From Pricia antarctica (GTDB lineage Bacteria; Bacteroidota; Bacteroidia; Flavobacteriales; Flavobacteriaceae), in contig DRGL01000043.1 in NCBI GenBank assembly GCA_011050085.1, forward strand, positions 1-64,000: a stretch of 64,000 bases of DNA. Reading direction: 5' to 3'. A model generated the notes under the pieces. The model was given only the letters and a program-made list of their open reading frames with translations, had not been told where the DNA came from and ran no database searches. Position 1 is the stretch's first letter; every line of letters starts with the position of its first letter. The translations under genes were made by a program, and so were the position numbers. Positions 17,848-38,225 of this stretch are shown piece by piece.

Positions 17848-20800
17848 CTAACGATAAAGTGTAAAGTGGCCTACATATCGAGTAGAACGCTTGTCGTTCT
17901 GGTTGACAACGTACCAGTAATCACCCGATGGCAATTCTTTGCCGTCGTATAATCCGTCCCATTTACTAACCTGGTCGAGTTCGGCCACTACCCTACCGTA
18001 ACGATCGTAAATAATCACTTCGATATTGGGGAAGAACTCTCTGTTTTTAGGCGACCAAAAATCGTTCTCATTGTCACCGTTAGGGGTGAAGAACTGTGGT
18101 AGTTCGAGCATTCCGGTAAATTCAAAGGGAATGCTGGCCACGGCAACGCAGCCGTTTTGATCTACTACACGCACTTCTACCATACCGCTTTCGGTGGTTG
18201 TGTAAACATTTTCATCGCCATAGGATTCTCCGTTGAAAAAATACTCATAGCCTCCGAATCCGCCACCCGCAATCGCCGTCAGTTCGTTCGGACCGGTTTT
18301 CTGGGCTTCTAAAGTCAAGGGCTCATAAGCCTCTATCGTAAATTCCACGGTGTTGGTACATCCGTTCTCGTGGTAGATATACACGATGTGTTCACCGGCA
18401 GGCAAATCGCCCCAAGCACGTTCCGTGGTAGCGATAGCGGTAACTGCATCGGAGGGGTTGATAGGATCCAAGGCAAACAAAATTTCCGATATACGGGTAT
18501 TATCCTCTAATTCGACTCGTGCCGTGCTGTTCGGAAAAATAACCTCACAACCATATTGAACAATCGGCTCTGCAGTTAGATCGACACCGATTTCAATCGG
18601 AACCTCAACGAAAGTACCGCACATATTCGCATCTTGAACAAACACAATATAGCTTACGCCCCCGGCCAAATTCTGAAAAATTAAATTATCGTTTCTTAGA
18701 AAAACTTCGGTTCCGTCTGACGTGGGGCCTATTAGTCTAGTCTGGTAATATTCGACCGGATTCATTGGATCGGTATTGTCAACAAAAGGCGTTCCTCCCT
18801 CAATGAACAGCTGTGCAGAACCATCGGCGGCGGCAATACAGGTTTCAGGGTTCGTAGTAACGTCCGTTACCGAAAGCTCTTCGGGCGTCTCGACGTATAT
18901 TTCGAAAGTTTGTGGACAGCCTTCCGCATCTTGTGCCAAAACAATGTAACCCGGACCATCGCCAAACGGTCTTGGAGCTAAATCTGTAAAGGTATATGTC
19001 ATCGGATTATCGGGGTCACTAAAGAACTCGCTCAAGTTGGGTTCGATCGAAAATTTCACCAATCCAGGGGTTGCACTGGTTACATTCATCGTAATGGTAC
19101 CGTCACTTTCACCGAAACATGTGGTTGGAGTTGCGCTTTGTGTAATAATTACGGGTGCTGCGGGCGCAATGGTAAAAGGACCTTGAACGACACCACAGTT
19201 TTGGCGACTTATAACGGATATCCAATAATCACCTGCATCTAGGTTTTCAAAAGTTCCAAAATCCTGCATGGCACGGTTCTCATACGTTGTTAATGGTAAG
19301 GCCGCGAAAGCATCCGCTCCCGGGTCGGAATCATAGACCCGGAACTCATATATTCCTGTACCACCTGTAGCAATAGCTTCAATTCTACCATCCACTTCAT
19401 AGGCACATGAAACGTCAAAAGTCGGGGACGTAGGTTCCAGAACCAGAGGTTCAGCCTCGGTTATGGTGATACCCCGTGTTTTTCGCGCCAAACAAGATGT
19501 TGAAGTACCATTTCTTCGGACTTCATAGCGATACGATTCATTGACCGTTCCAGGGATATCCCTTTTAACCGGTAATCCGTTGGCATCAATCTCATCAACC
19601 GGAAGCCACACGATACTTGGGTCTCCAGGTGGAACGTACATGGGATGTGTATCAGGATAAATGCGTCGATACTCATATGTACCCCCCTGCGGATTGTTTA
19701 CCCGAATCAACATAGTTGCGATATTACCGCATGCGGGAACAGAAGTCTGAATCAAGGCAGGTTCAATTGCCGGAGGTGGAACGACTTGAATCGGAACCGT
19801 AAACGATTGGCAATTCAATGTGGATACAATCTCTATGGCATACCATCCACCGGAAATAACACCCGTTCCGGCCGAACCTTCAAACTCCGGTTCGTTCTGC
19901 TGACCCGTAGTCGAAATTATATTAGCAGGATCAGTCAAATCTAAAGCTCCCGGGTTTGCGGGGTCTAAATTAGTTGGATCAATACGTAACAGTCGATATT
20001 GATAACCACCCCCTGATACGCCTCCGATAGCTCCTGGGTTTGTGGTGCCCGGTTCTACGGCCACGATAACGGCATCATTTCCGCTAGGACATTCCAACTG
20101 CCTATCAATCCTAGCTTCGGCTTCTATAGGGTCCACTGGATTTAGAATTACGGTTTCGGAATGTTCACACGCTTCGATATCGCGAACAGTTACCCGATAG
20201 TTCCCGCTAGAAAGTCCGGTAAATCGGTTGTTGCTTCCATTAGATGCAAAAGTGGCATATGCAGCACTGGTAGAAGGCACGTAATTACTGCCGTCGAAAT
20301 ATTCCAACCTATAGACATACGGAGAATTGTCCCAACCTCCTGTGGTATTGGCAACGATCTCGCCCAAGTCATTGTTACAGCCCACCCGACCTATTTCCTC
20401 TAAAGTTGTTATGCGTAATTGTTCGCTAGGGGTGTCAATAAATGAAGCGTTACTGAAAATATTACAGGCAGTAACTGTCTTATTACTTTCATGGATGACA
20501 ACCCTTAAATTGCCCGTTGGGAGACCCGTAATCGTTGCCGGATTTCCTGCGGATGAAATATCGATTGTTCCTGAAGAATTTCCAGCAACAGGAGTGCCAA
20601 AAGCTCCACCGGAAAATCCGGGGTCGGCCGCATCATAAACGATATAATCGTAAATACCGGAGAAACCTACCAAACTAGCCAAATTGGTTATCTCAATCTC
20701 GAGAATACCATCTGTTGCTCCGAGACATCCTACCGGCTCGTTCTGGCGGATGGTTGCGGTAGGCAAAACCGGCTCCGTTACGATATACGGCTCCAAAGGA

Positions 20801-23800
20801 TAGGTACAGCCGGCCACATCATTAATTTGTAGGCGGTATTCCCCAGCAACTTGTGGTAGATCGAACTCCACAACACTAGTACCCGAAACATCGGTTACCG
20901 GAGATACCGAAGAACCTTGGTCTTGTATGATAAAATTGCTTGAATTTGTAACAGTTATCCGTATACGTTCTGGCAGTTCACAATCCATCGCACGAACTTG
21001 TGTGATGGTCGCCGTTACGTCGTTCGGTGCCAAAATTGTTATTGTAGCGTTAGATTCACAACCATTATCGTCTATGGCGTACACAGTTATCGTTTGGTCG
21101 GTACCGTTATCGACAATCAAGAAATCGGGACTGGCCTGATAGCTATCCGTAGCATCGATTTTATAGCCATACGGACCGCCGTTGCCTATATCGGCCCCTG
21201 AATTCGCAATAGTGGTTCTTATAAATGTAGTGCTATATTGATTGGCATTGGGATTACACACCAACGGATCGGCACTAACTTCAATTCCAAATACAGGCGG
21301 ATCAATAATGGTTACTTCCTCGCGATCATAACAGTTTCTATCGGTCACTACTTCGACTACGTATATACCCGGACCCAAATTTTCGAAAGCACCGGAAACA
21401 TTATTGTCAATTCGAGATGTCACATCATAATTCGATGGCATGGATGCTAGGTCGCTATTATATAAATTATATTCTTTGATTGTTGGATTGTTATCCGGTA
21501 CAGGATCAACAATCAACGACACACCAATACTACCATCATTTAGACCATTACAGGATATATTAGTGGCGCCGGTATCATCAATATCAGGTTGGATGGGTTG
21601 AGATCGAAAAATTCCATCGACTATAAAAGTACAAGGGCCGACCGGTGAACCACCTGTGACAACCTGGTCTTCTACTTCAACTTCATAATCGCCTGGGGGA
21701 AGGTTCGTAAAATCAACCGTAAAATTATGGATACTATCATCGCCATCGTCAAGAATGCTTCTAGAAATTGGATTTCCAAGAAAATCTACCCCAGATAGTA
21801 CATAATTGAAATTCCCACTACCACCATTTGCAGTAATACGGATAGTACCATCGGGGTTTTCGCAATTCGGACCTATGCCAATGAAATCTCCTGAGGCCGA
21901 AAGTACTTGAAAGACTTCTGCAACAGTATCAATATCACAACCATTCGCGTCGATGATGTGCACCGGATAGCGGCCAATGCTTCCTACGTTAAAAGTAGCT
22001 TGGGTCGGAACTCCAGGTGTGTAAACTGGCGTTTGGGTTATCCCGTTTAGGGTAAAAGTAGGGGTATCGATATCACCCGGCATTTCGATAGTGATGTCCC
22101 ATCCGGTAGGGGGTGGTGTAACATCACACTGGTTGTTTACCATTATGGTCGGCTCGGGCAAATCTGGATTGAGTTGAATCATTGCTGCAGATGTTGTAGC
22201 CGGACATCCAGCGCCATCCAAAACCCAAATATCATAAATGACACCGGTCAAGGAACCTGCCAAAGCCTGAGTTGGGGATGAATCAAAGTCGGATAGCGGT
22301 GGAATATTACCAAGAGGAAGCGTTCCCTGTTCAATAAAGGCATATTCATACGGAGCAGTTCCGCCATTGGCCCGTACCGTAATTTGGCCTAATGCATTAC
22401 AGTTGGCATTCTGGTTCTCGATAATATCGACGCGCGGTAAATTTAATATCGCTTCGCCTTCATCACCACCACTACAACTTGGTGCAGCAGAATCGACTAC
22501 AGAAACGCCATAACGACCAGCAGGAACGGATAAATCGGCTGCCAAGGTCAACAATGAGGATCCAGTAACGTTATAAACGACAGTACCATCATTTAAATTC
22601 GTAATTATCACATCGAAAGGCGCAGTGCCTGATGTAATATTATAATTGACTCCAACATTACCATTTCTACAGGTAAGACCATCGACCAAAATGTCAACGT
22701 CTATTCCCGGGCTATCCGGCAAGGTAATCACCTCTTCATAGGTACAACCCGTTGTGGTATCGCGAACCTCAACCGTATAGGAAACGCCAAAAAGCAAGTT
22801 ATTAAAACAGTGCCTAGTTGGTGTATTGTTCGGGTTTTGAAAAGGGGATGATGGAGATGTAACTAATCGTATCTCATAATTGCCGGAACCATTGACAATG
22901 TCAACACAAATCGTAGTGCCTCCAGGAGTACAAACAACCGGTGCGGGAGGAAGATCTGGAATAATGTCAAGGTTGGTCGTATCAATAAACAAATCCTCTT
23001 GATCGATACATCCTCTTGAATCAACCACGATAACCTGATAATTACCAGGCACAAGACTAGGGTCTTCTATAGCTAAGGGCAAATCTCCCGGAGCCACATT
23101 AGTTAAGGTTATAAAACTATTTCCAAAGTTATCTTCAATGGTGATCGTGTAATTTGGAACTCCTGGGGATAACATTGGATTGATAGTAACACCACCGGAT
23201 AGATTTCCAGTACTACAAGTAGCATCAATGGGTGTAATGCTAGCATCTACAGCGGCGATAGGGTCGGTAATCACCTCAATTCTTGTCACAGGAGAGGTGA
23301 CACAATCCCGCGCATCTTTGACTACGTATTCATAAAACCCTGCAGCTAATCCGGAATAGATGTTCTGCGATGAGAACGAATACGTGTTCGTCGGATCAGG
23401 ATTGTTCGGGTCAGCGACAAGAACGCCTGGCGAAGGTGCCGGGGCAAAGACCACTTCGAAAGGCGGAACACCGGACGAAACCGTAGGTATTATTTCAACA
23501 AAACCACTGTTTGGGTCACCACAACTTGGGCCGACTATTCTATGGGTCGCGTCAATATTTGTAGGTTGTTCAAAGGTAATCGGTGCTGAAACAATACTAC
23601 ACCCATTAGTATCGGTAACGGTGACCCTATAATTACCATCGGCACTAAACGGAACTGTATATTGAAAGACACCTGAAGGCAAAGGCACACCACTATGACC
23701 CGTAACGGGAGCATAAGGACTGAACGGTGTGGCTGATTCAAATTCTATGGTATATGAAGTGGCTGACAAGTTCGAAATATCGCCCCCACTAATTGAAATC

Positions 23801-26775
23801 TCCATTTCACCATCATTTCCACAAGGAATTTCGCTCGTGACATCTAAATTAACCTGTATCTGGGGAGGTATTCTAACTGTAGGAAGTGATGCCGAACAGT
23901 TGGCATCGTCGACCACTTCAATAATATAATTTCCAGGAAACAAATTTGTAAAAGTAAATGTACCCACGGTACCCGGGGTCTGTAATGGTCCACCATTGAT
24001 ACGATAGCGATGTGTAGATAAGGCGGCCGTACCGGCACCCGAAGTCACGGTTATTTCACCATCATTGGTTGCTGAATAGCAATAGTCTGCCGTATCTAGG
24101 GTAATGGTAGGTGCATTGACGTTTGAAAGGGTGAATCGTGTTTCAGCGGTACAACCTTCAGAATCAATCACGGTAAGTATATATTCACCTTCAACGGTCA
24201 AGTTGCTAAAGGTTCGTCCTGTTTTCGGACCTTGAACGGTAGTGGACGGCGAAGGCCAAGTCAACTGGTATCGGTAACCTCCAAAACCATCAAGCCCAGT
24301 GGCCTGAACTCTACCAACATTACCATTTTGACAACTCATAGCCGTTACATTACCTGTAATACTTAAGGGGTTTGCAGGTTCAACCACATCGAACGAAGCG
24401 GCTGAAATACAATTCGTATCGTTATCCGTAACCGAAATTTCATAAGTACCGGCACCAAGACCCGTAATTACAATTTCAAAATTAGTTTCTCCAGTGCCGG
24501 AAGACTGTGTTACCGGTGGGCCGACCGTTGGCGTATAGGTTATTACATAATCATAATCAGTGTCAAACCCATCCACCAAAAAAGCACCGGTACCGTCAGT
24601 AGCGGTGGGACATACTCTTCTATCACCACCTGATTTTACCTGGGCCCTGATAGAACTAAATCCGCCGGTAGTGAAATTTTCGGTGTAGGTACAACCGTTG
24701 GCATCGGTAATTTGGAATTGATAGAACGTATCCAGATCCAAACCGGGGAAAACGTTACTAGGCTGCGCAGGCGGTAATGTAGTCGTCGGACTTGAGGAAA
24801 TAATTTCGTATTGGGCCACAGCAAAAGAACTCGGCTGCACATCAATAGTTACCCGACTGGTTCCCGAAGCACAGTCCAGATCATCTTGAATAAAAATAAC
24901 GTTGGTCGGTGGTACCGGTTCCGTTACTGTTATTGGGGCAAGAGCCTGATAACATCCGGCGTCATCCCGAACATAAGGTATATAAGTAGACCCAGGTGTC
25001 AATCCTCCAAAAGTCAGTCCTGTTTGGTATGTTACGTTGTCAACACTATACATATACCCAAATCCCGAACCACCGGTGGCCGTAACGAATTCTATAATTC
25101 CCTCGCCATTTCCACAGGTATAATCCTGAATTAAACTTGCAGAACTGCTTAAACCGCCCGCCGAGGTGACCGTCACGGCCGGCAAGGCCAATGTACACGT
25201 AAAGGCTCCCTGTGTATAGCGAACCTCAACAATGGAATACGTAGCGTCAGGTACAGGAATGGTCGATGAACTGGTAAAGGGATCCCCTGCGGTGTTGGTT
25301 GCCCTAAATTCCAAATTAAACCCTCTTGGATTTGTCACATTGAATGCCACTTTTCCACCCCCGTTCGTACAAGTGCCAACTATATCGGTCGCCGTAACAT
25401 CAGGCGGGGACAGTTCGGCCACGTATTCCGATTTCTCGGCCGTACAACCTTGATCATCTTCAATAAAAAAGGTATATGTACCTGGAGTGAAAACTGTATA
25501 CGGTCTAGTTCCAGAAAAGAATCCCGGACCGGAATCGCCTCCATCACTCACGGTATATCGATAACTACCGGAACCGCCCGTTGGCGTAACGTCGATATCT
25601 ATACTGGTAATGTCAGCGCAACCGAAACTCATACCATTTGTGTCGGTAATTACGGTAATCGGATCTAATCCTGTACCTACCTCTATTGGGTTTCCACTTG
25701 TATCGGTATCCTGAATCGGAGCAGCGATACCATTTGGGATGTCTTCCTTACAATCGTTAGTCTCAACTTGAACGGCATAGGTTCCTTCACTTACAGCTCC
25801 GAACGTATATGAATTACTGGATATGGTAGAAGTAAATTCAATCTCTGCACCATTCTCATCCAATAAGGTGTAGACATAAGGACCCGGAACTGCGGAATTT
25901 ACGGTAGCCGTTATCGTACCATTTTCTCCACTACATACGGGATTGGTAAACGTTACCTCTATCGCGATATCTACAGCTTCTATTTGAATGGGATCTAAGA
26001 GATATTCACAAACCGACCCCCCGATATTCAAACGGGCCTGAACTTGATATGAACCTGGATTAAGGTTCGAAAAAATGGAGGAAGACCCATAAGGTCCGAA
26101 TGGATTAGAGCCTTGTCTAACACGAAACTGATAGCTATTGGGTAGACCCGTTATTTCGATACGCCCTGGATTGTTACAGACAAAATTCTTCTTCAGAACG
26201 TCATACTCTATAGTACTTTTTACGACTTCGAAATAATACACTACGCCGTCGGCCAATACCCTATATTCAGCACCCGTACTGGCAGGTACAGATGATGCGT
26301 TCAATAAGAAGGTCTGATTCGGAGAGACTTGACTATAATTGGAAGGATTCGTATTCGGACACTCGGCATTGGTATTTGGTGCTGTACCGTCTAGAATTTC
26401 CCAAGATACCGTTGTGTAAGGTCCACCAGATAAGGATATGGTTCGATTATCGGAATCTCCACAGAGAATGAAACGGGCTATTGAACGACCATCGGCACTA
26501 CATACTACGACGTCATCGGCCCCTTGAATTGGGGTCATAAGTATTGGTGCGACCGCTTTACCAGTGACACCTGACTTGGTATTTAAAGTCTTTTTACTTT
26601 CGGCTATTGTAGTCGACTTAGCGTCTTCTTCTATGGATGCTATATCTACTATAACAGAGGCAACTTCTGTAAGGATAATGTGAACCTTATTTTTTGCAAT
26701 TGCCGTTGTACCGATGACAGAAAAAATCAGCAAAACAAAAGCATACAAAAGATGCCGTGGGTTTTTTGGAAGCAT
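17848..26775 (-). CDS. Giant SprB-like repeat adhesin with T9SS type B (gliding motility-associated) C-terminal sorting domain
   Basis: 2975 aa; signal peptide; many repeats of the type C.G..DG.I.V...GG...Y.Y....G.Y...V.D..GC; C-terminus PQFFTPNGDNENDFWSPKNREFFPNIEVIIYDRYGRVVAELDQVSKWDGLYDGKELPSGDYWYVVNQNDKRSTRYVGHFTLYR. Confidence 0.95.
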   Translation of the reverse strand: MLPKNPRHLLYAFVLLIFSVIGTTAIAKNKVHIILTEVASVIVDIASIEEDAKSTTIAESKKTLNTKSGVTGKAVAPILMTPIQGADDVVVCSADGRSIARFILCGDSDNRTISLSGGPYTTVSWEILDGTAPNTNAECPNTNPSNYSQVSPNQTFLLNASSVPASTGAEYRVLADGVVYYFEVVKSTIEYDVLKKNFVCNNPGRIEITGLPNSYQFRVRQGSNPFGPYGSSSIFSNLNPGSYQVQARLNIGGSVCEYLLDPIQIEAVDIAIEVTFTNPVCSGENGTITATVNSAVPGPYVYTLLDENGAEIEFTSTISSNSYTFGAVSEGTYAVQVETNDCKEDIPNGIAAPIQDTDTSGNPIEVGTGLDPITVITDTNGMSFGCADITSIDIDVTPTGGSGSYRYTVSDGGDSGPGFFSGTRPYTVFTPGTYTFFIEDDQGCTAEKSEYVAELSPPDVTATDIVGTCTNGGGKVAFNVTNPRGFNLEFRATNTAGDPFTSSSTIPVPDATYSIVEVRYTQGAFTCTLALPAVTVTSAGGLSSSASLIQDYTCGNGEGIIEFVTATGGSGFGYMYSVDNVTYQTGLTFGGLTPGSTYIPYVRDDAGCYQALAPITVTEPVPPTNVIFIQDDLDCASGTSRVTIDVQPSSFAVAQYEIISSSPTTTLPPAQPSNVFPGLDLDTFYQFQITDANGCTYTENFTTGGFSSIRAQVKSGGDRRVCPTATDGTGAFLVDGFDTDYDYVITYTPTVGPPVTQSSGTGETNFEIVITGLGAGTYEISVTDNDTNCISAASFDVVEPANPLSITGNVTAMSCQNGNVGRVQATGLDGFGGYRYQLTWPSPSTTVQGPKTGRTFSNLTVEGEYILTVIDSEGCTAETRFTLSNVNAPTITLDTADYCYSATNDGEITVTSGAGTAALSTHRYRINGGPLQTPGTVGTFTFTNLFPGNYIIEVVDDANCSASLPTVRIPPQIQVNLDVTSEIPCGNDGEMEISISGGDISNLSATSYTIEFESATPFSPYAPVTGHSGVPLPSGVFQYTVPFSADGNYRVTVTDTNGCSIVSAPITFEQPTNIDATHRIVGPSCGDPNSGFVEIIPTVSSGVPPFEVVFAPAPSPGVLVADPNNPDPTNTYSFSSQNIYSGLAAGFYEYVVKDARDCVTSPVTRIEVITDPIAAVDASITPIDATCSTGNLSGGVTINPMLSPGVPNYTITIEDNFGNSFITLTNVAPGDLPLAIEDPSLVPGNYQVIVVDSRGCIDQEDLFIDTTNLDIIPDLPPAPVVCTPGGTTICVDIVNGSGNYEIRLVTSPSSPFQNPNNTPTRHCFNNLLFGVSYTVEVRDTTTGCTYEEVITLPDSPGIDVDILVDGLTCRNGNVGVNYNITSGTAPFDVIITNLNDGTVVYNVTGSSLLTLAADLSVPAGRYGVSVVDSAAPSCSGGDEGEAILNLPRVDIIENQNANCNALGQITVRANGGTAPYEYAFIEQGTLPLGNIPPLSDFDSSPTQALAGSLTGVIYDIWVLDGAGCPATTSAAMIQLNPDLPEPTIMVNNQCDVTPPPTGWDITIEMPGDIDTPTFTLNGITQTPVYTPGVPTQATFNVGSIGRYPVHIIDANGCDIDTVAEVFQVLSASGDFIGIGPNCENPDGTIRITANGGSGNFNYVLSGVDFLGNPISRSILDDGDDSIHNFTVDFTNLPPGDYEVEVEDQVVTGGSPVGPCTFIVDGIFRSQPIQPDIDDTGATNISCNGLNDGSIGVSLIVDPVPDNNPTIKEYNLYNSDLASMPSNYDVTSRIDNNVSGAFENLGPGIYVVEVVTDRNCYDREEVTIIDPPVFGIEVSADPLVCNPNANQYSTTFIRTTIANSGADIGNGGPYGYKIDATDSYQASPDFLIVDNGTDQTITVYAIDDNGCESNATITILAPNDVTATITQVRAMDCELPERIRITVTNSSNFIIQDQGSSVSPVTDVSGTSVVEFDLPQVAGEYRLQINDVAGCTYPLEPYIVTEPVLPTATIRQNEPVGCLGATDGILEIEITNLASLVGFSGIYDYIVYDAADPGFSGGAFGTPVAGNSSGTIDISSAGNPATITGLPTGNLRVVIHESNKTVTACNIFSNASFIDTPSEQLRITTLEEIGRVGCNNDLGEIVANTTGGWDNSPYVYRLEYFDGSNYVPSTSAAYATFASNGSNNRFTGLSSGNYRVTVRDIEACEHSETVILNPVDPIEAEARIDRQLECPSGNDAVIVAVEPGTTNPGAIGGVSGGGYQYRLLRIDPTNLDPANPGALDLTDPANIISTTGQQNEPEFEGSAGTGVISGGWYAIEIVSTLNCQSFTVPIQVVPPPAIEPALIQTSVPACGNIATMLIRVNNPQGGTYEYRRIYPDTHPMYVPPGDPSIVWLPVDEIDANGLPVKRDIPGTVNESYRYEVRRNGTSTSCLARKTRGITITEAEPLVLEPTSPTFDVSCAYEVDGRIEAIATGGTGIYEFRVYDSDPGADAFAALPLTTYENRAMQDFGTFENLDAGDYWISVISRQNCGVVQGPFTIAPAAPVIITQSATPTTCFGESDGTITMNVTSATPGLVKFSIEPNLSEFFSDPDNPMTYTFTDLAPRPFGDGPGYIVLAQDAEGCPQTFEIYVETPEELSVTDVTTNPETCIAAADGSAQLFIEGGTPFVDNTDPMNPVEYYQTRLIGPTSDGTEVFLRNDNLIFQNLAGGVSYIVFVQDANMCGTFVEVPIEIGVDLTAEPIVQYGCEVIFPNSTARVELEDNTRISEILFALDPINPSDAVTAIATTERAWGDLPAGEHIVYIYHENGCTNTVEFTIEAYEPLTLEAQKTGPNELTAIAGGGFGGYEYFFNGESYGDENVYTTTESGMVEVRVVDQNGCVAVASIPFEFTGMLELPQFFTPNGDNENDFWSPKNREFFPNIEVIIYDRYGRVVAELDQVSKWDGLYDGKELPSGDYWYVVNQNDKRSTRYVGHFTLYR

Positions 26776-28611: not shown

Positions 28612-29421
28612 TTACTTTCTCGCATCCAAGGCTGCTTTCACCGAACCATATTTTTTCAAAAGAGATTCCGCCTCTTTATAATCCACCCCCAAACCTTCCA
28701 TCACGTACCGTGTACCACGATCGACCAATTTATCGTTACTGAGCTGCATATTTACCATTTTATTGCCCTTAACTCTTCCGATTTTTATCATCAGCGCTGT
28801 GGAAATCATATTCAGCACCAATTTTTGGGAGGTCCCACTTTTCATACGGGTACTTCCAGTAACGAACTCCGGACCCACATCGACGGCAATGCCTAAGTCA
28901 GCCAATTTCTCTAAAGGTGAACCAGGATTATTGGTTATTCCAGCCGTAAGCAGTCCATTTTTCTTTGCATCCTCTATTCCACCAAGAACATAAGGTGTAG
29001 TACCTGAGGCGGCTATGCCGACTACCACATCGGTCTCATTAACATCAAATGCCATCAAATCTTTCCACGCCTGTACCCTATCGTCCTCGGCATTTTCCAC
29101 TGATTTACGTATGGCGGTGTCACCTCCAGCTATAATGCCGATGACGCGAGTATGCGGCATGCCAAATGTAGGAGGAATTTCTGAAGCATCTAAAATGCCT
29201 AACCGCCCACTTGTGCCAGCACCGATATAAAAAAGCCTTCCTCCCTTATCAAAACGTTCGGACAAGGCGTCGACTAAAAGCCTAATTTCAGGAATGACCT
29301 TGGCCACGGCAGATGCCACTTGTTGATCTTCTTGATTCATTTTAGTCAGTATGGAAACCGTATCCAACTGTTCCAAATTATCGTGGTTTGAAGGCGTTTC
29401 GGTAATTTTTTTGAAATTCAT
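28612..29421 (-). CDS. murQ: N-acetylmuramic acid 6-phosphate etherase
   Basis: 269 aa; GAGTSGRLGILDASEIPPTFG, GIIAGGDTAIRKSVENAEDD, EFVTGSTRMKSGTSQKLVLNMIST. Confidence 0.97.
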   Translation of the reverse strand: MNFKKITETPSNHDNLEQLDTVSILTKMNQEDQQVASAVAKVIPEIRLLVDALSERFDKGGRLFYIGAGTSGRLGILDASEIPPTFGMPHTRVIGIIAGGDTAIRKSVENAEDDRVQAWKDLMAFDVNETDVVVGIAASGTTPYVLGGIEDAKKNGLLTAGITNNPGSPLEKLADLGIAVDVGPEFVTGSTRMKSGTSQKLVLNMISTALMIKIGRVKGNKMVNMQLSNDKLVDRGTRYVMEGLGVDYKEAESLLKKYGSVKAALDARK

Positions 29422-29502: not shown

Positions 29503-30270
29503 TTAAAGTAATCGAATATCATGCTGTCGAAAGGGATTCAAGAGTTTATTTTCGGGCGATAATTCCGTTATCATGGTATTGATGGCATTTATATCACAGG
29601 TCTTATAACGGTGTTGGGAGTTCAGTTTTTCGGATATGGATAAAAGTACCGTTTTTTTGGCGCATTTGATAACGGCTTTTTTGACCTGAACGATATCCCA
29701 ATCGAATTCGGTAAGACCGTACTGAGAGTCTACATAGCCTGTACCGATGAAACTGAAGTCAACCCTAATTTCCGACAGCTGGTGTATAGCGCTAGCCCCA
29801 ACTGAGGTCTGCGATTCTTTTGAAACCTGGCCGCCAACCATAATTACGCTTACATTTGGCTTGTGCAACAGTTCCATCGCGACAGGAAGGCTGTGGGTAA
29901 AGCAAGTCAATTCTGGTGTAGTAGGCAGGAGTCTGGTCAATTCTAGACAGGTCGTTCCACCGTCAATAAAGATTACCGCTCCATCCTTTAAGAGTGTCGA
30001 GGCCTTTTCGGCTATGACACTTTTCTCCGCTAGTTTATAGACATTAGTATTCCTAGTGCTATTTGTAGTAAATCCCAAAGATATAGCCCCACCGTGTACC
30101 TTTCTTAATTTATGATCTCCATCTAATTCCTTGACATCACGACGAACGGTATCAATGGAAACATCCAAGGTCTCGGCGATATCGGTAAGCAGAATTCTAT
30201 TATGAAGCTCTACTTCACTTAAAATTTTCTGTTGGCGTTCTTCCTTTAGCATTTGTATTTGTAGTTTCAA
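29503..30270 (-). CDS. DeoR/GlpR family transcriptional regulator (start may be the internal Met, MLKEERQQ)
   Basis: ERQQKILSEVELHNRILLTDIAETLDVSIDTVRRDVKEL HTH; sugar-phosphate-sensing DeoR C-terminal domain. Confidence 0.95.
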   Translation of the reverse strand: MKLQIQMLKEERQQKILSEVELHNRILLTDIAETLDVSIDTVRRDVKELDGDHKLRKVHGGAISLGFTTNSTRNTNVYKLAEKSVIAEKASTLLKDGAVIFIDGGTTCLELTRLLPTTPELTCFTHSLPVAMELLHKPNVSVIMVGGQVSKESQTSVGASAIHQLSEIRVDFSFIGTGYVDSQYGLTEFDWDIVQVKKAVIKCAKKTVLLSISEKLNSQHRYKTCDINAINTMITELSPENKLLNPFRQHDIRLL

Positions 30271-30488: not shown

Positions 30489-32417
30489 ATGAAAGCTACT
30501 TTAGAAAAAAAACAAATCGACATCAGTTATAAACCGGTAGGCCAATTCGAGGAGACCCGTTTTGAAAAAATTCATAATGTCATTTTTTCCGATTCCAATG
30601 TAGCATCAGTAAGGGTCGCGCATGAGATTGCGGCACTGATTCGCAAGAAACAAGCTGCGGATAAAAACTGTGTCCTTGGACTAGCTACAGGATCTTCTCC
30701 TTTACGCGTATATGAAGAGCTCGTACGCTTGCACAAAGAAGAGGGCCTTAGTTTCTCTAATGTCATCACCTTCAATCTCGATGAATACCTTCCCATGGAA
30801 AAGGAAAATCGGCAGAGCTATTGGTACTTTATGCATGAGAATCTTTTTAACCATATCGATATCCCGAAAGAAAACATCCACATTCCCGATGGCACCATCG
30901 ACGGTGACGATGTAATTGAGTACTGCTTATCGTACGAGAAGGATATCAAAGAATATGGCGGACTTGATTTTCAACTGCTGGGTATCGGTCGTACGGGACA
31001 TGTAGGCTTTAATGAGCCTGGTTCCCACTATAATTCGGGAACCCGTGTTATTACCCTTGACCATATTACCCGGGTTGATGCCGCCCCAGCTTTTTTCGGT
31101 ATAGACAACGTTCCTAGAAAGGCCATTACCATGGGGATTGCTACCGTGCTCAATGCCAAACGTATCGTATTGCTGGCATGGGGACAAAATAAGGCCAAAA
31201 TTATCCAGGAAACCATAGAGGGCGATATTTCTTCCGCAGTTCCGGCGACCTATCTGCAGGATCATAAAAATTGTACTTTCGTTCTTGATGCTGGCGCTGG
31301 TAGTTTGCTTACCCGAAACAACACCCCTTGGCTGGTCGACGAATCGCTGGACTGGACCGAAGAACTCACTCGTAAAGCCGTAGTCTGGCTTTGTACGTTG
31401 ACCGGCAAGTCCATTTTGAGCCTTACAGACAAGGATTACAACGATAACGGCATGTCGGGACTACTAGCGGTTCAAGATTCATACGATTTAAACATTACGA
31501 TGTTCAATCGCCTACAACACACCATCAGCGGTTGGCCCGGAGGTAAACCGAACGCCGATGACACTAACAGGCCAGAGCGCGCCGAACCTGCCAAAAAACG
31601 AGTGCTTATTTTCAGTCCCCACCCTGATGATGACGTTATTTCAATGGGCGGTACCCTTGATCGGCTTATTCAGCAAGGACACGATGTACATGTGGCCTAT
31701 CAAACATCAGGAAATATTGCAGTATCAGATAAAGAGGCCCTAAAATTCGCGGAAATATCAAAGCGAATTTACAAATCGAAAGAAGCGCAGGAAATCATCG
31801 ATTATATTAAAACCAAAAAAGAAAGTAGCTACGATTCAAAACAGGTACTACGGCTAAAAGGGGATATTCGTAGAGGGGAGTCATATGCCGCCGTTCGATA
31901 TCTTGATCTTGACGATGCCAACGTTCACTTTTTAGACATGCCTTTTTATGAGACCGGACGTGTTAAAAAGGATAATCTATCAAAAGCTGATATTGATATT
32001 ATTGTTGACATTATTCAAAAAATACAACCCCAGCAGATCTATGCCGCCGGTGACTTGGCGGATCCCCACGGTACACACAAAGTGTGTTTAGATGCCATAT
32101 TCGCAGCCCTTGAACGCTTAAAATCGGAACCATTTATGAAAGATTGCTGGGTTTGGCTATATCGGGGAGCCTGGCACGAATGGGATACCAATGAAATCGA
32201 AATGGCCGTACCGATGAGTCCCGGGCAAGTACTGCGAAAGCGGAACGCCATATTTGCCCATCAATCCCAAAAGGACGGCGTTATGTTTCAGGGCGATGAT
32301 TCAAGAGAATTCTGGATGCGGGCCGAAGAGCGAAACAAAGAGACTGCCAACCGCTATCATGCACTCGGTCTAGCCGACTACGCTGCCATGGAAGCGTTTG
32401 TACGGTACCATTTTTAA
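30489..32417 (+). CDS. nagB: Glucosamine-6-phosphate deaminase fused to a C-terminal PIG-L/LmbE deacetylase-like domain
   Basis: N-terminal: LGLATGSSPLRVYEELV, TFNLDEY, LLGIGRTGHVGFNEPGS. C-terminal: RVLIFSPHPDDDVISMGGTLDRLIQQGHDVHVAYQTSG, DPHGTHKVCLDAI. Confidence 0.95.
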   Translation: MKATLEKKQIDISYKPVGQFEETRFEKIHNVIFSDSNVASVRVAHEIAALIRKKQAADKNCVLGLATGSSPLRVYEELVRLHKEEGLSFSNVITFNLDEYLPMEKENRQSYWYFMHENLFNHIDIPKENIHIPDGTIDGDDVIEYCLSYEKDIKEYGGLDFQLLGIGRTGHVGFNEPGSHYNSGTRVITLDHITRVDAAPAFFGIDNVPRKAITMGIATVLNAKRIVLLAWGQNKAKIIQETIEGDISSAVPATYLQDHKNCTFVLDAGAGSLLTRNNTPWLVDESLDWTEELTRKAVVWLCTLTGKSILSLTDKDYNDNGMSGLLAVQDSYDLNITMFNRLQHTISGWPGGKPNADDTNRPERAEPAKKRVLIFSPHPDDDVISMGGTLDRLIQQGHDVHVAYQTSGNIAVSDKEALKFAEISKRIYKSKEAQEIIDYIKTKKESSYDSKQVLRLKGDIRRGESYAAVRYLDLDDANVHFLDMPFYETGRVKKDNLSKADIDIIVDIIQKIQPQQIYAAGDLADPHGTHKVCLDAIFAALERLKSEPFMKDCWVWLYRGAWHEWDTNEIEMAVPMSPGQVLRKRNAIFAHQSQKDGVMFQGDDSREFWMRAEERNKETANRYHALGLADYAAMEAFVRYHF

Positions 32418-32639
32418 TGGTAATACTCTTTTAGAAGTGAGGTAAAGGCAAAAACTAATGGAATTTTAGTGAATATTTGTTTAGCACTTCTTTCATAAGG
32501 TTCTACAATCATTCCATCATGATGTGCTAGGTGCGTTCGAGAAGGACATAAGATTTCATATTAATTTATACCCTATTTTTATATGCAGCTTCGAAGGTGA
32601 ATCGATTACTCATTGCAAAGGCGAATTACAACCAAACGA

Positions 32640-34163
32640 ATGCCTAAATTACTGATATCGCTTACTCTTTTTACGTTACTTACATCTTGTGCCATTTTCA
32701 ATCCCGTCCCTCAACCAAAGAGAGAATTCCGTGGTTTTTGGGTAGCCACCGTTGTGAATATAGATTGGCCTAAAAACGGTACTGATTCCATTGAAAAGCA
32801 AAAGGCGGACTATCTTAAAATCCTAGATTTTTACGATGAACTAAATTTCAATGCCGCCATAGTGCAGGTGCGAACTGCAGGAGATGCCTTCTATGCTTCT
32901 AAATACGCCCCTTGGTCACGATTTTTGACAGGGGAAGAAGGTAAAGCCCCGAAAACTGAAGAAAGTATTTTACGGTGGATGATTTCCGAAACACATGCTA
33001 GAGGTATGGAGTTTCACGCTTGGCTCAACCCCTATCGCGCTACATTTGATCTGAATACGGAGTTGTTAAGTCCTGATCATGATTTTAACCAACACCCTAA
33101 TTGGATGTTGAAATACGGAAAAAAATTCTATTACGATCCCGGACTTCCCGAGGTACGCCAACGTATGGTTTCTGTAATCGATGAATTGGTATCAAATTTC
33201 GATATCGATGCCATACACTTTGATGACTATTTTTACCCTTATACTATTGCCGGCGAGATATTTCCTGATTCACTAAGTTTTAATACATATGCATTAAAAG
33301 GTCAAGCCTTGGCAGATTGGCGTCGCAGTAATATCGACGCCTTGGTCAAGGACAGTTACGAAATAATTAAAGCCCGAAAGCCTTGGGTACAATTCGGGAT
33401 TAGTCCTTTTGGGGTCTGGAAAAACAACAGCGTCGACCCCAAAGGGTCGGATACTAATGCTGGTCAAACTACGTATGAAAACTTATTTGCCGACCCTTTA
33501 CTTTGGATGCAGAAAGGATGGCTTGACTATATTGTACCGCAAGTCTATTGGAGCATGGAACTTCCTGTCGCCTCTCACCGAAAAATAGTAGATTGGTGGG
33601 CCAAGAATTCAATCAACACTAATCTATATATCGGCAATGGGCCCTATAAAATCCGAAATAACGCCGACAAAGCTTGGGATAAAAAAAGAGAACTTTCCGA
33701 CCAATTGAATCATGCACGACATACAAAGGCGGTTAAAGGCAATGTTTTTTTCAGTGCCAAAAGTCTTATAGAAAACAATACGGATGTAACAAAACTCATA
33801 TACCGAAAATTTTATAAAAAGGAAGCTCTTCCCCCTACTTCACCTTGGATTTCAGGCAAGTCCGATTCACCGATTAGTATGGAATCGATACAAAAGGTGA
33901 ATGACTATTTTATACTTGAGTTCAATAATTTACAAGAATTTGAATTTCTGACCATATATCCTTCAGGATTTAGAGCAAAATCTCAATATGCTATCCAAAA
34001 ACTATTGGCGAAACTTCCCATAACCCATAGCAATAAAATTCAACTTACTCCGAGAATAATAGGTCAACGAAATCAGATTGCGTTGGTATTTATCGATCGG
34101 TATGGACGGGAATCCGAAGCTATAGTTGTAGATTTAAATCAACAAGGGGGAAAGAATGATTAA
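32640..34163 (+). CDS. Glycosyl hydrolase-like 10 (DUF187) family lipoprotein
   Basis: Lipobox LLTSC; REFRGFWVATVVNIDWP, YDPGLPEVRQRMVSVIDELVSNFDIDAIHFDDYFYPY. ATG at 32640 preferred over the track's TTG at 32613. Confidence 0.93.
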   Translation: MPKLLISLTLFTLLTSCAIFNPVPQPKREFRGFWVATVVNIDWPKNGTDSIEKQKADYLKILDFYDELNFNAAIVQVRTAGDAFYASKYAPWSRFLTGEEGKAPKTEESILRWMISETHARGMEFHAWLNPYRATFDLNTELLSPDHDFNQHPNWMLKYGKKFYYDPGLPEVRQRMVSVIDELVSNFDIDAIHFDDYFYPYTIAGEIFPDSLSFNTYALKGQALADWRRSNIDALVKDSYEIIKARKPWVQFGISPFGVWKNNSVDPKGSDTNAGQTTYENLFADPLLWMQKGWLDYIVPQVYWSMELPVASHRKIVDWWAKNSINTNLYIGNGPYKIRNNADKAWDKKRELSDQLNHARHTKAVKGNVFFSAKSLIENNTDVTKLIYRKFYKKEALPPTSPWISGKSDSPISMESIQKVNDYFILEFNNLQEFEFLTIYPSGFRAKSQYAIQKLLAKLPITHSNKIQLTPRIIGQRNQIALVFIDRYGRESEAIVVDLNQQGGKND

Positions 34164-35430
34164 AAAGGATAAATGGGCTTGGGCATGGGTGCCCGTTCTC
34201 TATTTCACACAGGGATTACCCTATGTGCTCGTGGTAACCGTTTCGGTTATTATGTACAAAAAGCTTGGTGTCAGCAATGAAGATATTGGTCTGTATACCA
34301 GTTTGCTCTATCTCCCTTGGGTATTAAAACCGTTATGGAGTCCTTTCGTTGATCTTAAAAGTACCAAGCGAAAATGGTTTTTAGGCATGCAGTTGCTCAT
34401 TGCCATTGCCCTTTTGGGAGTAGGCCTAAGCCTGCCGACCAGCTTGTTCTTTACCACTACCCTGGCCTGCTTCTGGATGGCGGCTTTCGCCTCGGCAACC
34501 AATGATATAGCCTCTGATGGGTATTATATGCTGGGCCTCTCAGAACAAAAGCAATCTTTCTTTGTTGGCATGCGAAGTACTTTCTATCGATTGGCCATGG
34601 TCACTGGAGAAGGTCTTATCGTAGTTATTGCAGGATTTCTAGAAAATAAGTATGGCGATAATACGAAAGCTTGGAGCATAACCATGAGTGCAGCAGCATT
34701 TTTAATGCTGGCCCTGACCGTAGCCAACTTTTTTACAACACCAAAATTCGAGTCCTCAACTGCGATTGAGAAGGATAAGCCTGAGGGGTTTCTCGCCGTA
34801 TTTTCTTCCTTTTTTAAAAAAAAGAACATTGGTATAGCGCTTGCATTCATCTTGACCTTTCGACTGGGTGAATCCCAACTTGTAAAAATGGCCGCCCCAT
34901 TTATGCTCGATAGCCCAGAAAAAGGAGGCCTTGGCTATTCCACCGAACAATTGGGAACAATTTTCGGAACAGCAGGAGTTATTTTTCTATCCATTGGTGG
35001 CATTCTAGGTGGTATCTTAATTTCAAGGGACGGTCTTAAAAAATGGATGTTGCCGATGGTACTTTCGCTGAATATTCCGAATATATTATATGCCGTCTTG
35101 GCTATGACCGGCACTACTAATATCTACGCAGTCACCACCACTGTTATCTTTGAAAAATTTGGATATGGCTTTGGTTTTGCTGCCTTTTTGATGTATCTCA
35201 TCTATGTCGCCGAAGGAAAATCCAAGACCTCCCACTATGCCATCGCCACAGGTTTTATGGCCTTAGGAATGATGCTACCGGGCATGGTTTCAGGCTACAT
35301 GCAACAATGGCTCGGGTATGGCGGTTTTTTTGTATGGGTAGTGATAGCCGCTTTGCCCGCATTATTTTTATTAAAATTTATTGATTATCCTGCCGACTTT
35401 GGCAAAAAAACCGACGATACCAATGCTTGA
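34156..35430 (+). CDS. AmpG-like MFS transporter (muropeptide permease-like)
   Basis: 424 aa; WVPVLYFTQGLPYVLVVTVSVIMYKKLGVSNEDIGLYTSLLYLPWVLKPLWSPFVD; NDIASDGYYM; 12-TM pattern; start overlaps upstream stop. Confidence 0.85.
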   Translation: MIKKDKWAWAWVPVLYFTQGLPYVLVVTVSVIMYKKLGVSNEDIGLYTSLLYLPWVLKPLWSPFVDLKSTKRKWFLGMQLLIAIALLGVGLSLPTSLFFTTTLACFWMAAFASATNDIASDGYYMLGLSEQKQSFFVGMRSTFYRLAMVTGEGLIVVIAGFLENKYGDNTKAWSITMSAAAFLMLALTVANFFTTPKFESSTAIEKDKPEGFLAVFSSFFKKKNIGIALAFILTFRLGESQLVKMAAPFMLDSPEKGGLGYSTEQLGTIFGTAGVIFLSIGGILGGILISRDGLKKWMLPMVLSLNIPNILYAVLAMTGTTNIYAVTTTVIFEKFGYGFGFAAFLMYLIYVAEGKSKTSHYAIATGFMALGMMLPGMVSGYMQQWLGYGGFFVWVVIAALPALFLLKFIDYPADFGKKTDDTNA

Positions 35431-37042
35431 AGCGATACCCTATACAAAGGCAACTGAACTACTGACGAAGAAGGATAAAATAGGGCAATTATTTATGCCT
35501 TCGGCCTTCATAAACGATACGGAATCCGAGATTCAAGAAATTGAAAAACTGATTCGTGAAGAACAGGTCGGTAGTCTGTGTTTTTTTCATAGTCGTGCCA
35601 GTGCAGCAACTAATTTTGAAGGCCTAAAACCCATTATTCATAACGAAAACAGTTTTATTACCCTTAAAAAATTAATAGGTAGATATCAACAAGCCTCCAA
35701 GTACCCCTTATTGATTGCCATCGATGCCGAATGGGGATTGGCAATGCGCATTGAGAACACACCGCAATATCCCTATGCTATTACCCTAGGTGCACTTCCC
35801 GATAGCTCGGCCGATTTAATTTATGATGTTGGAAAAGATATAGCCTTAGATTGTAAAAAAGCGGGTATACATTGGAACTTGGCTCCCTGTGTTGACATAA
35901 ATAACAATCCTAATAATCCAGTAATAGGATACCGGTCTTTTGGGGAGAATAAATTCAAAGTAACCCAAAAAGCTTTAGCCTATATCAAAGGCACGCAAGA
36001 CGCCGGGATCTTGACGAGCATCAAACATTTTCCCGGTCATGGAGATACCGATGCTGATTCACATTTAGAACTTCCTTTGATAGATAAAACCAAACAGGAA
36101 CTACTCGAAAATGAACTGTTTCCCTTTCAAAAATTGATTGATGAAGGCGTTGATTCCGTAATGGTAGGGCATCTGTCCGTTCCCGCCTTAGCAAATGGTA
36201 GCACTATATCCTCAAGCATATCCAAAGAGATAATTAAAGGTATGCTGAGAAATGAAATGGGCTACAAGGGAGTTGTTATATCCGACGCGCTCAATATGCA
36301 CGCTGTTTCGAAAAACTATACGGTCAAAGGTGAACTCGCTTGGCTTGCTTTCGATGCCGGTAACGATGTACTTTGTTTTGCAGAACATATTCCTGAGAGT
36401 GTCCAAACCATTCTTGCAAAGGCATCCGAACCTCAGATTGAAGAAAGCTTCCGTCGGATTTGGCAATTGAAGGAAAAAGTGTTTGCTGCAACTTTATCCA
36501 CAAAACAATCAACTGTCATAGATAAACCAATAAACGAATTATCGCCAAATTCAATCCTTGGTAATTCGGCTGACCTAAATAGAAAGATTGCCATGAAAAG
36601 CCTTACCCTTGTTAAGGGTACGGAAAAGCTAATTTCAGATTTTAAAGGCACTAATTTTGTAGGTATACAATTTTCGAAAAGCATTGAAAATCAATTTTTT
36701 AAAAATATCAATCAAAACATTGAGTTTACATTGTTACCATCAATAGATTCAGTTTTAAATAGCGGAGACAATATCCTTTTAGCCCTATTTCCACCCCAGG
36801 TAAAACCCAACCAAAATTTCGGTTTTACCAAGGAGGAGTTGATTTTTATCAACGAGCTGGTTCAAACTAAAAACGTCGTACTATACCTGTTCGGAAATCC
36901 TTATGTATTGCAACATATCGATGTGAAAAATATAAAGAGCCTAGTACTCGTCTATCAAGACTTCGATGTGTTTCAAGAGGTAGCGGCGGAACATTTTCTA
37001 GGAAATTTTACGGCTCAAGGGAAACTTTCCGTAAGCATATGA
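35423..37042 (+). CDS. Glycoside hydrolase family 3 beta-N-acetylhexosaminidase (NagZ-like)
   Basis: IGQLFMPSAF, IAIDAEWGLAMR, TSIKHFPGHGDTDADSHLELP, MVGHLSVPAL, VISDALNM. Start at 35423 overlaps the AmpG-like stop by 8 nt. Confidence 0.94.
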   Translation: MLEAIPYTKATELLTKKDKIGQLFMPSAFINDTESEIQEIEKLIREEQVGSLCFFHSRASAATNFEGLKPIIHNENSFITLKKLIGRYQQASKYPLLIAIDAEWGLAMRIENTPQYPYAITLGALPDSSADLIYDVGKDIALDCKKAGIHWNLAPCVDINNNPNNPVIGYRSFGENKFKVTQKALAYIKGTQDAGILTSIKHFPGHGDTDADSHLELPLIDKTKQELLENELFPFQKLIDEGVDSVMVGHLSVPALANGSTISSSISKEIIKGMLRNEMGYKGVVISDALNMHAVSKNYTVKGELAWLAFDAGNDVLCFAEHIPESVQTILAKASEPQIEESFRRIWQLKEKVFAATLSTKQSTVIDKPINELSPNSILGNSADLNRKIAMKSLTLVKGTEKLISDFKGTNFVGIQFSKSIENQFFKNINQNIEFTLLPSIDSVLNSGDNILLALFPPQVKPNQNFGFTKEELIFINELVQTKNVVLYLFGNPYVLQHIDVKNIKSLVLVYQDFDVFQEVAAEHFLGNFTAQGKLSVSI

Positions 37043-37148: not shown

Positions 37149-38225
37149 ATGAAAGTTCATAAAATAATAGGCCTTATGTCCGGTACTTCCCTAGACGGAC
37201 TCGATCTAGCCTTATGCCACATATGGGAAGAAGATGTACGATGGAGATATAAGATTACAGCGTCTAAAAGTATATCCTACGCTTCTGAAATGCAGTCAAA
37301 ATTACAGCATTCCATTTCGCTTCCGGCGGAAGAGCTATTACAGTTCCATAATTTTTATGGTACCTGGCTAGGCGAACAGACCAAAACCTTCGTAGACGAA
37401 AATAGGCTGGATGTTGATTACATTGCAAGTCACGGACATACAACCCACCACCGTCCGGAAATGGGCGTTACCTTTCAAATCGGGTCTGGTCAACATTTGG
37501 CCAATGCCAGCGGTCTAAAGGTTATTTGTGATTTTCGCACCAACGACGTCGCACTCAAAGGTCAAGGTGCCCCTTTAGTACCTATTGGCGACCAATTATT
37601 TTTTGGTGGATACGATTTTTGTTTGAACCTCGGTGGTATTGCCAATATATCTTTTGATACGAAGGGCGAACGGAAAGCCTATGATATCGGTCTGGCCAAT
37701 ATGATCCTTAACCATATCACGCGAAAAAATGGATTGGATTACGATAAAGGTGGAACGTTGGCCCGTAGTGGAGTGGTAAATACCAATCTACTGCAAAATT
37801 TGAACCATCTGGAATTTTATCGGCTCCCATACCCAAAATCAATTGGTTACGAATGGTTTGTTAAAAAGGTAATACCGCTAGTGGATGCTGTGGATGATAA
37901 GATGGAAAATCTATTGTGCACGGGTGTACATCACATATGTGAACAGGTTGCCGTACAGGTCAGGGCGCAAAGCAGTAAAACAGAAAACTCCCTATTAGTT
38001 ACAGGAGGAGGTGCTTTAAACGATTATCTAATCGAAACCTTACAGCAAAAATTGGGCGGCCATACCAAAGTAGTTGTACCAAAAACCCAACTGATAGAAT
38101 TCAAAGAGGCGCTGGTATTTGCCCTTATGGGGGTACTTCGAATTGAAGGTAAAATCAACGTGCTGAAGTCGGTGACAGGGGCTGTTAGAGATTCTTCAAG
38201 TGGCGTGGTTTTTTTACCCGCTTAG
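37149..38225 (+). CDS. anmK: Anhydro-N-acetylmuramic acid kinase
   Basis: 358 aa; IGLMSGTSLDGLDLALC, SHGHTTHHRPEMGVTFQIGSG, LNLGGIANIS, VTGGGALNDYL. Confidence 0.97.
   Translation: MKVHKIIGLMSGTSLDGLDLALCHIWEEDVRWRYKITASKSISYASEMQSKLQHSISLPAEELLQFHNFYGTWLGEQTKTFVDENRLDVDYIASHGHTTHHRPEMGVTFQIGSGQHLANASGLKVICDFRTNDVALKGQGAPLVPIGDQLFFGGYDFCLNLGGIANISFDTKGERKAYDIGLANMILNHITRKNGLDYDKGGTLARSGVVNTNLLQNLNHLEFYRLPYPKSIGYEWFVKKVIPLVDAVDDKMENLLCTGVHHICEQVAVQVRAQSSKTENSLLVTGGGALNDYLIETLQQKLGGHTKVVVPKTQLIEFKEALVFALMGVLRIEGKINVLKSVTGAVRDSSSGVVFLPA

Follow-up and report, generated by a model that had tools for sequence, protein, structure and literature searches.

A NagB::PIG-L fusion protein that may carry out both deacetylation and deamination of GlcNAc-6-P in Bacteroidota

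Introduction

GlcNAc-6-P is the junction of the chitin, mucin, sialic-acid and cell-wall-recycling pathways. E. coli converts it to fructose-6-P, acetate and NH3 with two enzymes, NagA (TIGR00221) and NagB. The same net reaction is proposed here for a single protein, in which the putative deacetylase has an unrelated fold (PIG-L/LmbE instead of the amidohydrolase TIM barrel) and is covalently joined to NagB. That a PIG-L enzyme can supply the deacetylation in amino-sugar catabolism is known from the archaeal chitin pathway, whose Dac (PDB 8bgo/3we7) is a fold match to the fusion. Unlike NagB::PIG-L, Dac is not fused to a deaminase, and its substrate is unphosphorylated chitobiose or GlcNAc.

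The LmbE/PIG-L superfamily (MshB, BshB, PIG-L) is defined by an HXD1D2 + H metal motif, with a described spacing of 97-148 residues between ligands 2 and 3 (PMC4101496). The fusion has this motif in common with the superfamily but differs in that PIG-L is joined C-terminally to NagB and that the position of MshB Tyr142 is taken by Asp525.

Proteins of this architecture are already catalogued as NF002557 (PRK02122) under the name "glucosamine-6-phosphate deaminase-like", which covers the deaminase only and leaves the second domain without an attached function. Our search of the open-access literature found no published role for that domain; a proposed role, a cryptic long family and a split gene pair are what we add here. 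PGN_0606 of P. gingivalis is an NF002557-type protein by name (PMC3764172), and BT0258 of B. thetaiotaomicron is probably another member, judging by annotation or context. Deleting the chitin-locus NagB of F. johnsoniae, Fjoh_4557, did not affect growth on chitin, the protein was not expressible in E. coli, and NagA was assigned to Fjoh_3974 (PMC5127042). Accounts of this locus mention no deacetylase domain (PMC5127042; PMC7426924). From its position in the locus, Fjoh_4557 (ChiUL NagB) is probably the fusion described here.

We analysed a stretch of 64,000 nucleotides from Pricia antarctica (contig DRGL01000043.1, positions 1 to 64,000; hereafter the window) and followed its fusion gene through a sample of 297 Bacteroidota genomes. 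This comparison of about 300 genomes suggests that the second half of the protein does the job of NagA.

Results

A fusion gene within a recycling cluster

The protein encoded by the fusion gene (Table 1) is a full-length member of NF002557, matching residues 6-641 with 1050.1 bits (curated cut-off 384). Both halves are recognised above cut-off by Pfam, as Glucosamine_iso (residues 38-261, E 2.9e-21) and as PIG-L (PF02585; residues 373-540, E 2.3e-19, 70.6 bits against a gathering score of 28.2), and the NagB profile TIGR00502 reaches 261.4 bits (cut-off 236.9). Because two domains exceed curated cut-offs, the full-length model matches and 121 other genomes carry the same architecture, the fusion is not a chance product. 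The NagB::PIG-L fusion of the original prediction is thus confirmed, and the PIG-L/LmbE metal motif, SPHPDDDVISMGG followed by DPHGTHK, lies in the C-terminal half just as that prediction had it. Pfam and NCBIfam profiles give no amidohydrolase match in the protein, which also lacks the NagA signature of TIGR00221; at most it works like NagA, and it is itself no NagA.

Table 1. Features of the fusion gene and of the surrounding cluster (window coordinates)
Feature	Position	Strand	Details
NagB::PIG-L fusion gene	30489..32417	+	642 aa, ATG start; NF002557 full length
NagB (GlcN-6-P deaminase) domain, residues 38-275	30600..31313	+	TIGR00502; ~40% identity to B. subtilis NagB 2bkv
DEY motif	30780..30788	+	Asp98 = E. 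coli NagB Asp72; Asp in 172/174 fusions
TGHVGFNEP	30993..31019	+	Thr169 (E. coli Asp141), His171 (His143), Glu176 (Glu148)
Interdomain linker, residues 276-368	31314..31592	+	contains ISGWPGGKPNADDTNRPER, kept among near relatives
PIG-L/LmbE domain, residues 369-642	31593..32414	+	Pfam; fold match to BshB 2ixd and Pyrococcus Dac 8bgo, E ~1e-7
HPDDD	31620..31634	+	His378, Asp381 predicted metal ligands, Asp380 predicted general base; H, D, D, D each 174/174
DPHGTHK	32061..32081	+	His530 predicted third metal ligand; His527 = MshB His144 position
murQ (MurNAc-6-P etherase; product GlcNAc-6-P)	28612..29421	-	TIGR00274 305.6 bits, cut-off 302
DeoR-family regulator, divergent to fusion	29503..30270	-	Pfam, neighbourhood comparison
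GHL10 glycosyl-hydrolase-like protein	32613..34163	+	Pfam
AmpG-like muropeptide transporter (MFS)	34156..35430	+	TIGR00901 188.8 bits, below its cut-off
GH3 (NagZ-like) hexosaminidase	35381..37042	+	Pfam, NCBIfam
anmK (anhydro-MurNAc kinase)	37149..38225	+	Pfam, NCBIfam

None of the neighbours of the fusion matches NagA in Pfam or NCBIfam, in line with the earlier remark that the cluster holds no nagA. Around 40 of the near relatives compared have the same MurQ/AmpG/NagZ/AnmK cluster around the fusion. Elsewhere the gene stands between SusCD and GH20, in chitin-type loci with a two-component pair and an MFS transporter, or together with a sugar kinase of BadF type (recognised by inspection), a ROK kinase, AnmK or NagX-like genes. 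These other contexts recur in separate clades, and the GH20-type context resembles the F. johnsoniae chitin locus. The recycling cluster also has a large neighbour, a 2975-aa SprB-repeat / CHU_C type IX secretion protein (window 17848-26775, minus strand), which is conserved beside it in 36 related loci.

Both active sites are conserved

We followed conservation across 174 fusions, which represent more than 20 families. Within the PIG-L site, His378, Asp380, Asp381, Asp382 and His530 are invariant (174/174) and His527 is present in 173 of the 174 sequences. The arrangement His378-Pro-Asp380-Asp381 ... His530 separates ligand 2 from ligand 3 by 148 residues, the upper limit of the described spacing. 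Position-by-position comparison suggests that MshB Tyr142 and Asp146 correspond to Asp525 and Thr529.

The NagB site is kept nearly as well: Asp98 is found in 172 sequences, His171 in 171, and Glu176 and Lys235 in all 174. Thereby the catalytic Asp72, His143 and Glu148 of E. coli NagB are all matched in the 642-aa protein (by Asp98, His171 and Glu176). E. coli Asp141 is not matched, the position being Thr169 here and mostly Thr across the fusions; B. subtilis NagB has Asn there, so Asp141 is not universal within NagB.

An AlphaFold2 model of the fusion has moderate confidence (pLDDT 72, pTM 0.48, which cannot place the two active sites relative to each other). Foldseek matched this model to B. 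subtilis NagB (2bkv) and its C-terminal half to BshB (2ixd) and Pyrococcus Dac (8bgo), the latter two with E values of ~1e-7 and target TM scores of ~0.5-0.6. Accordingly, the C-terminal half is predicted to adopt the LmbE Rossmann-like fold.

No canonical cytoplasmic NagA found in the P. antarctica genome

The note that drew attention to the gene had proposed looking for nagA in the genome (5.48 Mb, 99.7% complete). Our profile search found no canonical cytoplasmic NagA. Only two proteins resemble NagA, both of them divergent amidohydrolases; they score 221.5 and 219.8 bits (TIGR00221 cut-off 225.65) and have, by inspection, signal-peptide-like N-termini. Both carry GNGCANE(I/D)NRH.NPLW in place of the NAM...REPG of B. 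subtilis and Flavobacterium NagA, a segment that contributes to phosphate binding in E. coli NagA. The two proteins (L024:8156-9382, L022:11331-12584) represent a NagA-like subfamily that is found in sugar-processing clusters and probably deacetylates unphosphorylated sugars.

The genome further encodes a second copy of the fusion (C74, L021:9239-11170; 1049.5 bits to NF002557) and two more, unfused NagB-like proteins. The operon of the second copy (L021:9239-15126) combines it with a GHMP kinase, a nucleotidyltransferase and an SSS symporter.

Most genomes with the fusion lack NagA

The fusion had been thought widespread in Bacteroidetes, and it is indeed present in 122 of the 297 sampled genomes; NagA is present in 42 and MurQ in 213. 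Among the 121 genomes with both MurQ and the fusion, NagA is absent from 98, and a canonical NagA accompanies the fusion in the other 23 (about a fifth).

As a control, B. subtilis was missed in the TIGR00221 search at E<=1e-5 although its NagA scores 603 bits. We therefore rechecked the absence of NagA with an exact DNA pattern and by rescoring all candidates. The pattern for the NagA signature G-x-HLEGP-aromatic was found in 37 genomes, only one of them outside the profile set, and this one is a chance frame of 66 residues. When all candidates were scored, a NagA above cut-off turned up just once among 20 selected fusion genomes and in none of 17 genomes in a second set; NagA-like matches did not exceed ~37 bits in most of the fusion genomes rescored.

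For MurQ-positive genomes as a whole, NagA and the canonical fusion show no association (Fisher p=0.86). A contrast appeared once unfused NagB, the long fusion and the split pair (both described below) were separated, a division made after seeing the data: NagA is present in 10 of 12 genomes whose only strong NagB is unfused and in 31 of 149 with either fusion (Fisher p=2e-5, taking no account of phylogeny, as for all distribution statistics here). Four families hold both fused and unfused NagB, and there NagA occurs in 9/10 unfused versus 4/18 fused genomes (p=0.001). Two of the unfused-NagB genomes lack NagA, and one of them is the genome that carries a free PIG-L gene. The fusion is also associated with MurQ (p=1e-22); phylogeny explains much of this association and we set it aside as evidence.

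In three Flavobacterium loci NagA is the gene immediately upstream of the fusion and PIG-L is still intact there, which argues that the two are not simply interchangeable. Of the MurQ-positive genomes, 56 have no NagA and none of these fusions. The presence of MurQ thus does not by itself require such a deacetylase, though nearly all of the 56 also lack a strong NagB match.

NagB-dead fusions, a split pair and a long family

G230 and G238, two genomes from a single genus, encode fusions (L317, L318) that have Tyr for Asp98 and Asn for His171 but an intact PIG-L site. Each of these genomes also encodes a separate NagB whose four catalytic residues are complete (~420 bits), and NagA was not found in either when all candidates were scored. 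Such NagB-dead fusions should not persist unless the PIG-L half has a function of its own.

The C-terminal domain was also used by itself as a query against the MurQ-positive genomes that have neither NagA nor the canonical fusion. This search recovered a split pair and a divergent family of long fusions. The split pair, in the NagA-less genome G219, consists of a free NagB gene (L297:9059-9850, minus strand) followed by a free PIG-L gene (L297:8175-9035, minus strand) whose product belongs to the PIG-L subfamily of the fusion and is 42% identical. The two genes are in different frames, the canonical linker is absent, and the PIG-L gene has no ATG, its start being presumably a TTG behind GAGG. 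The pair comes from a single draft genome, where a frameshift could still account for the separation.

The long NagB::PIG-L proteins (~790 aa) are ~25-27% identical to the canonical fusion and fall below the cut-offs of both models (Pfam PIG-L E 0.012; NF002557 ~218-227 bits). They retain PHHDD and DPEGSGPDTHYK, that is HxDD + H. The NagB half has Asp141, with Val in place of Glu148. We found the family in 27 genomes, all of them without the canonical fusion (0/27). Its gene is directly divergent from murQ in one genome (G132; L299:8289-10622) and lies within several kilobases of it in two others (G035, G074).

Discussion

We propose that one protein catalyses two consecutive reactions in the breakdown of GlcNAc-6-P. 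Its C-terminal PIG-L domain would be a mononuclear metal-dependent de-N-acetylase, with His378, Asp381 and His530 as ligands and Asp380 as general base, and would remove acetate from GlcNAc-6-P supplied by MurQ or GlcNAc kinases. GlcN-6-P would then be turned into fructose-6-P and ammonia by the N-terminal NagB domain. Our data establish the domain composition, the conserved residues, the gene neighbourhoods, the distribution and the complementarity with NagA; we infer the PIG-L activity, its substrate and the order of the steps. The channelling of GlcN-6-P between the two sites, as originally suggested, would be a further and speculative feature. In most bacteria with the fusion, the PIG-L domain would take the place of NagA, an amidohydrolase. 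We give this reading a probability of roughly 0.6. The idea of a combined deacetylase and deaminase, as originally put forward, gains from the invariant sites, the absence of NagA and its complementarity with the fusion, the NagB-dead fusions, the split pair and the long family. It loses from the fifth or so of fusion genomes that keep a canonical NagA, because of which the replacement is not universal.

The PIG-L domain could instead have a different acetylated amino sugar as its substrate (free GlcNAc, chitobiose, GalNAc-6-P, GlcNAc-1-P or a muropeptide fragment), with GlcNAc-6-P left to NagA or an unrecognised enzyme. We consider this unlikely, though it has real arguments: the solved PIG-L relatives use unphosphorylated diacetylchitobiose or GlcNAc conjugates, some genomes keep NagA beside the fusion, and the second P. 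antarctica copy has the GHMP kinase, nucleotidyltransferase and SSS symporter genes as its neighbours, not murQ. Yet the partner NagB domain uses GlcN-6-P, the gene contexts repeatedly supply GlcNAc-6-P (MurQ, GlcNAc kinases), the fusion is complementary to NagA, and NagB-dead fusions occur in genomes that lack NagA. A bifunctional protein whose PIG-L step is auxiliary is a distinctly improbable alternative; the fusion would then be mainly a NagB, and the true NagA would be elsewhere, for example among the divergent NagA-like amidohydrolases. These do keep HLEG and the metal-site residues, both in P. antarctica and in several relatives, and the nagB deletion of F. johnsoniae had no chitin phenotype (PMC5127042). 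However, the divergent proteins lack NAM...REPG, those of P. antarctica would not meet cytoplasmic GlcNAc-6-P given their signal-peptide-like N-termini, and most fusion genomes have no NagA-like match above ~37 bits even with all candidates scored.

A PIG-L domain that is no longer catalytic and plays a structural or regulatory role, such as GlcNAc-6-P sensing for the deaminase, is very improbable. The metal and base residues are invariant in 174 of 174 sequences, and HxDD + H is kept both in the ~25% identical long family and in the NagB-dead fusions. What could be said for such a role is that GlcNAc-6-P is an allosteric activator of E. coli NagB and that the literature search found no demonstrated activity for the PIG-L domain of the fusion. 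We also considered BT0259 ("aminohydrolyse", PMC10434189) as a divergent NagA beside the fusion and dropped it; the gene beside the fusion in some f23 loci (c60) is TatD-type by inspection and not NagA.

Taken more broadly, Bacteroidota may have replaced NagA with a NagB-joined PIG-L in two diverged forms (642 aa and ~790 aa), which would be the main GlcNAc-6-P route in most members with MurQ and NagB; we give this wider claim even odds. Annotation and metabolic models seek NagA and, as most fusion-bearing Bacteroidota lack it, the step appears there as a pathway gap. If our proposal is true, NagA has undergone a non-orthologous replacement by an unrelated fold, and the models of many environmental and gut bacteria would be corrected. 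PIG-L enzymes would likewise gain a phosphorylated monosaccharide as a substrate.
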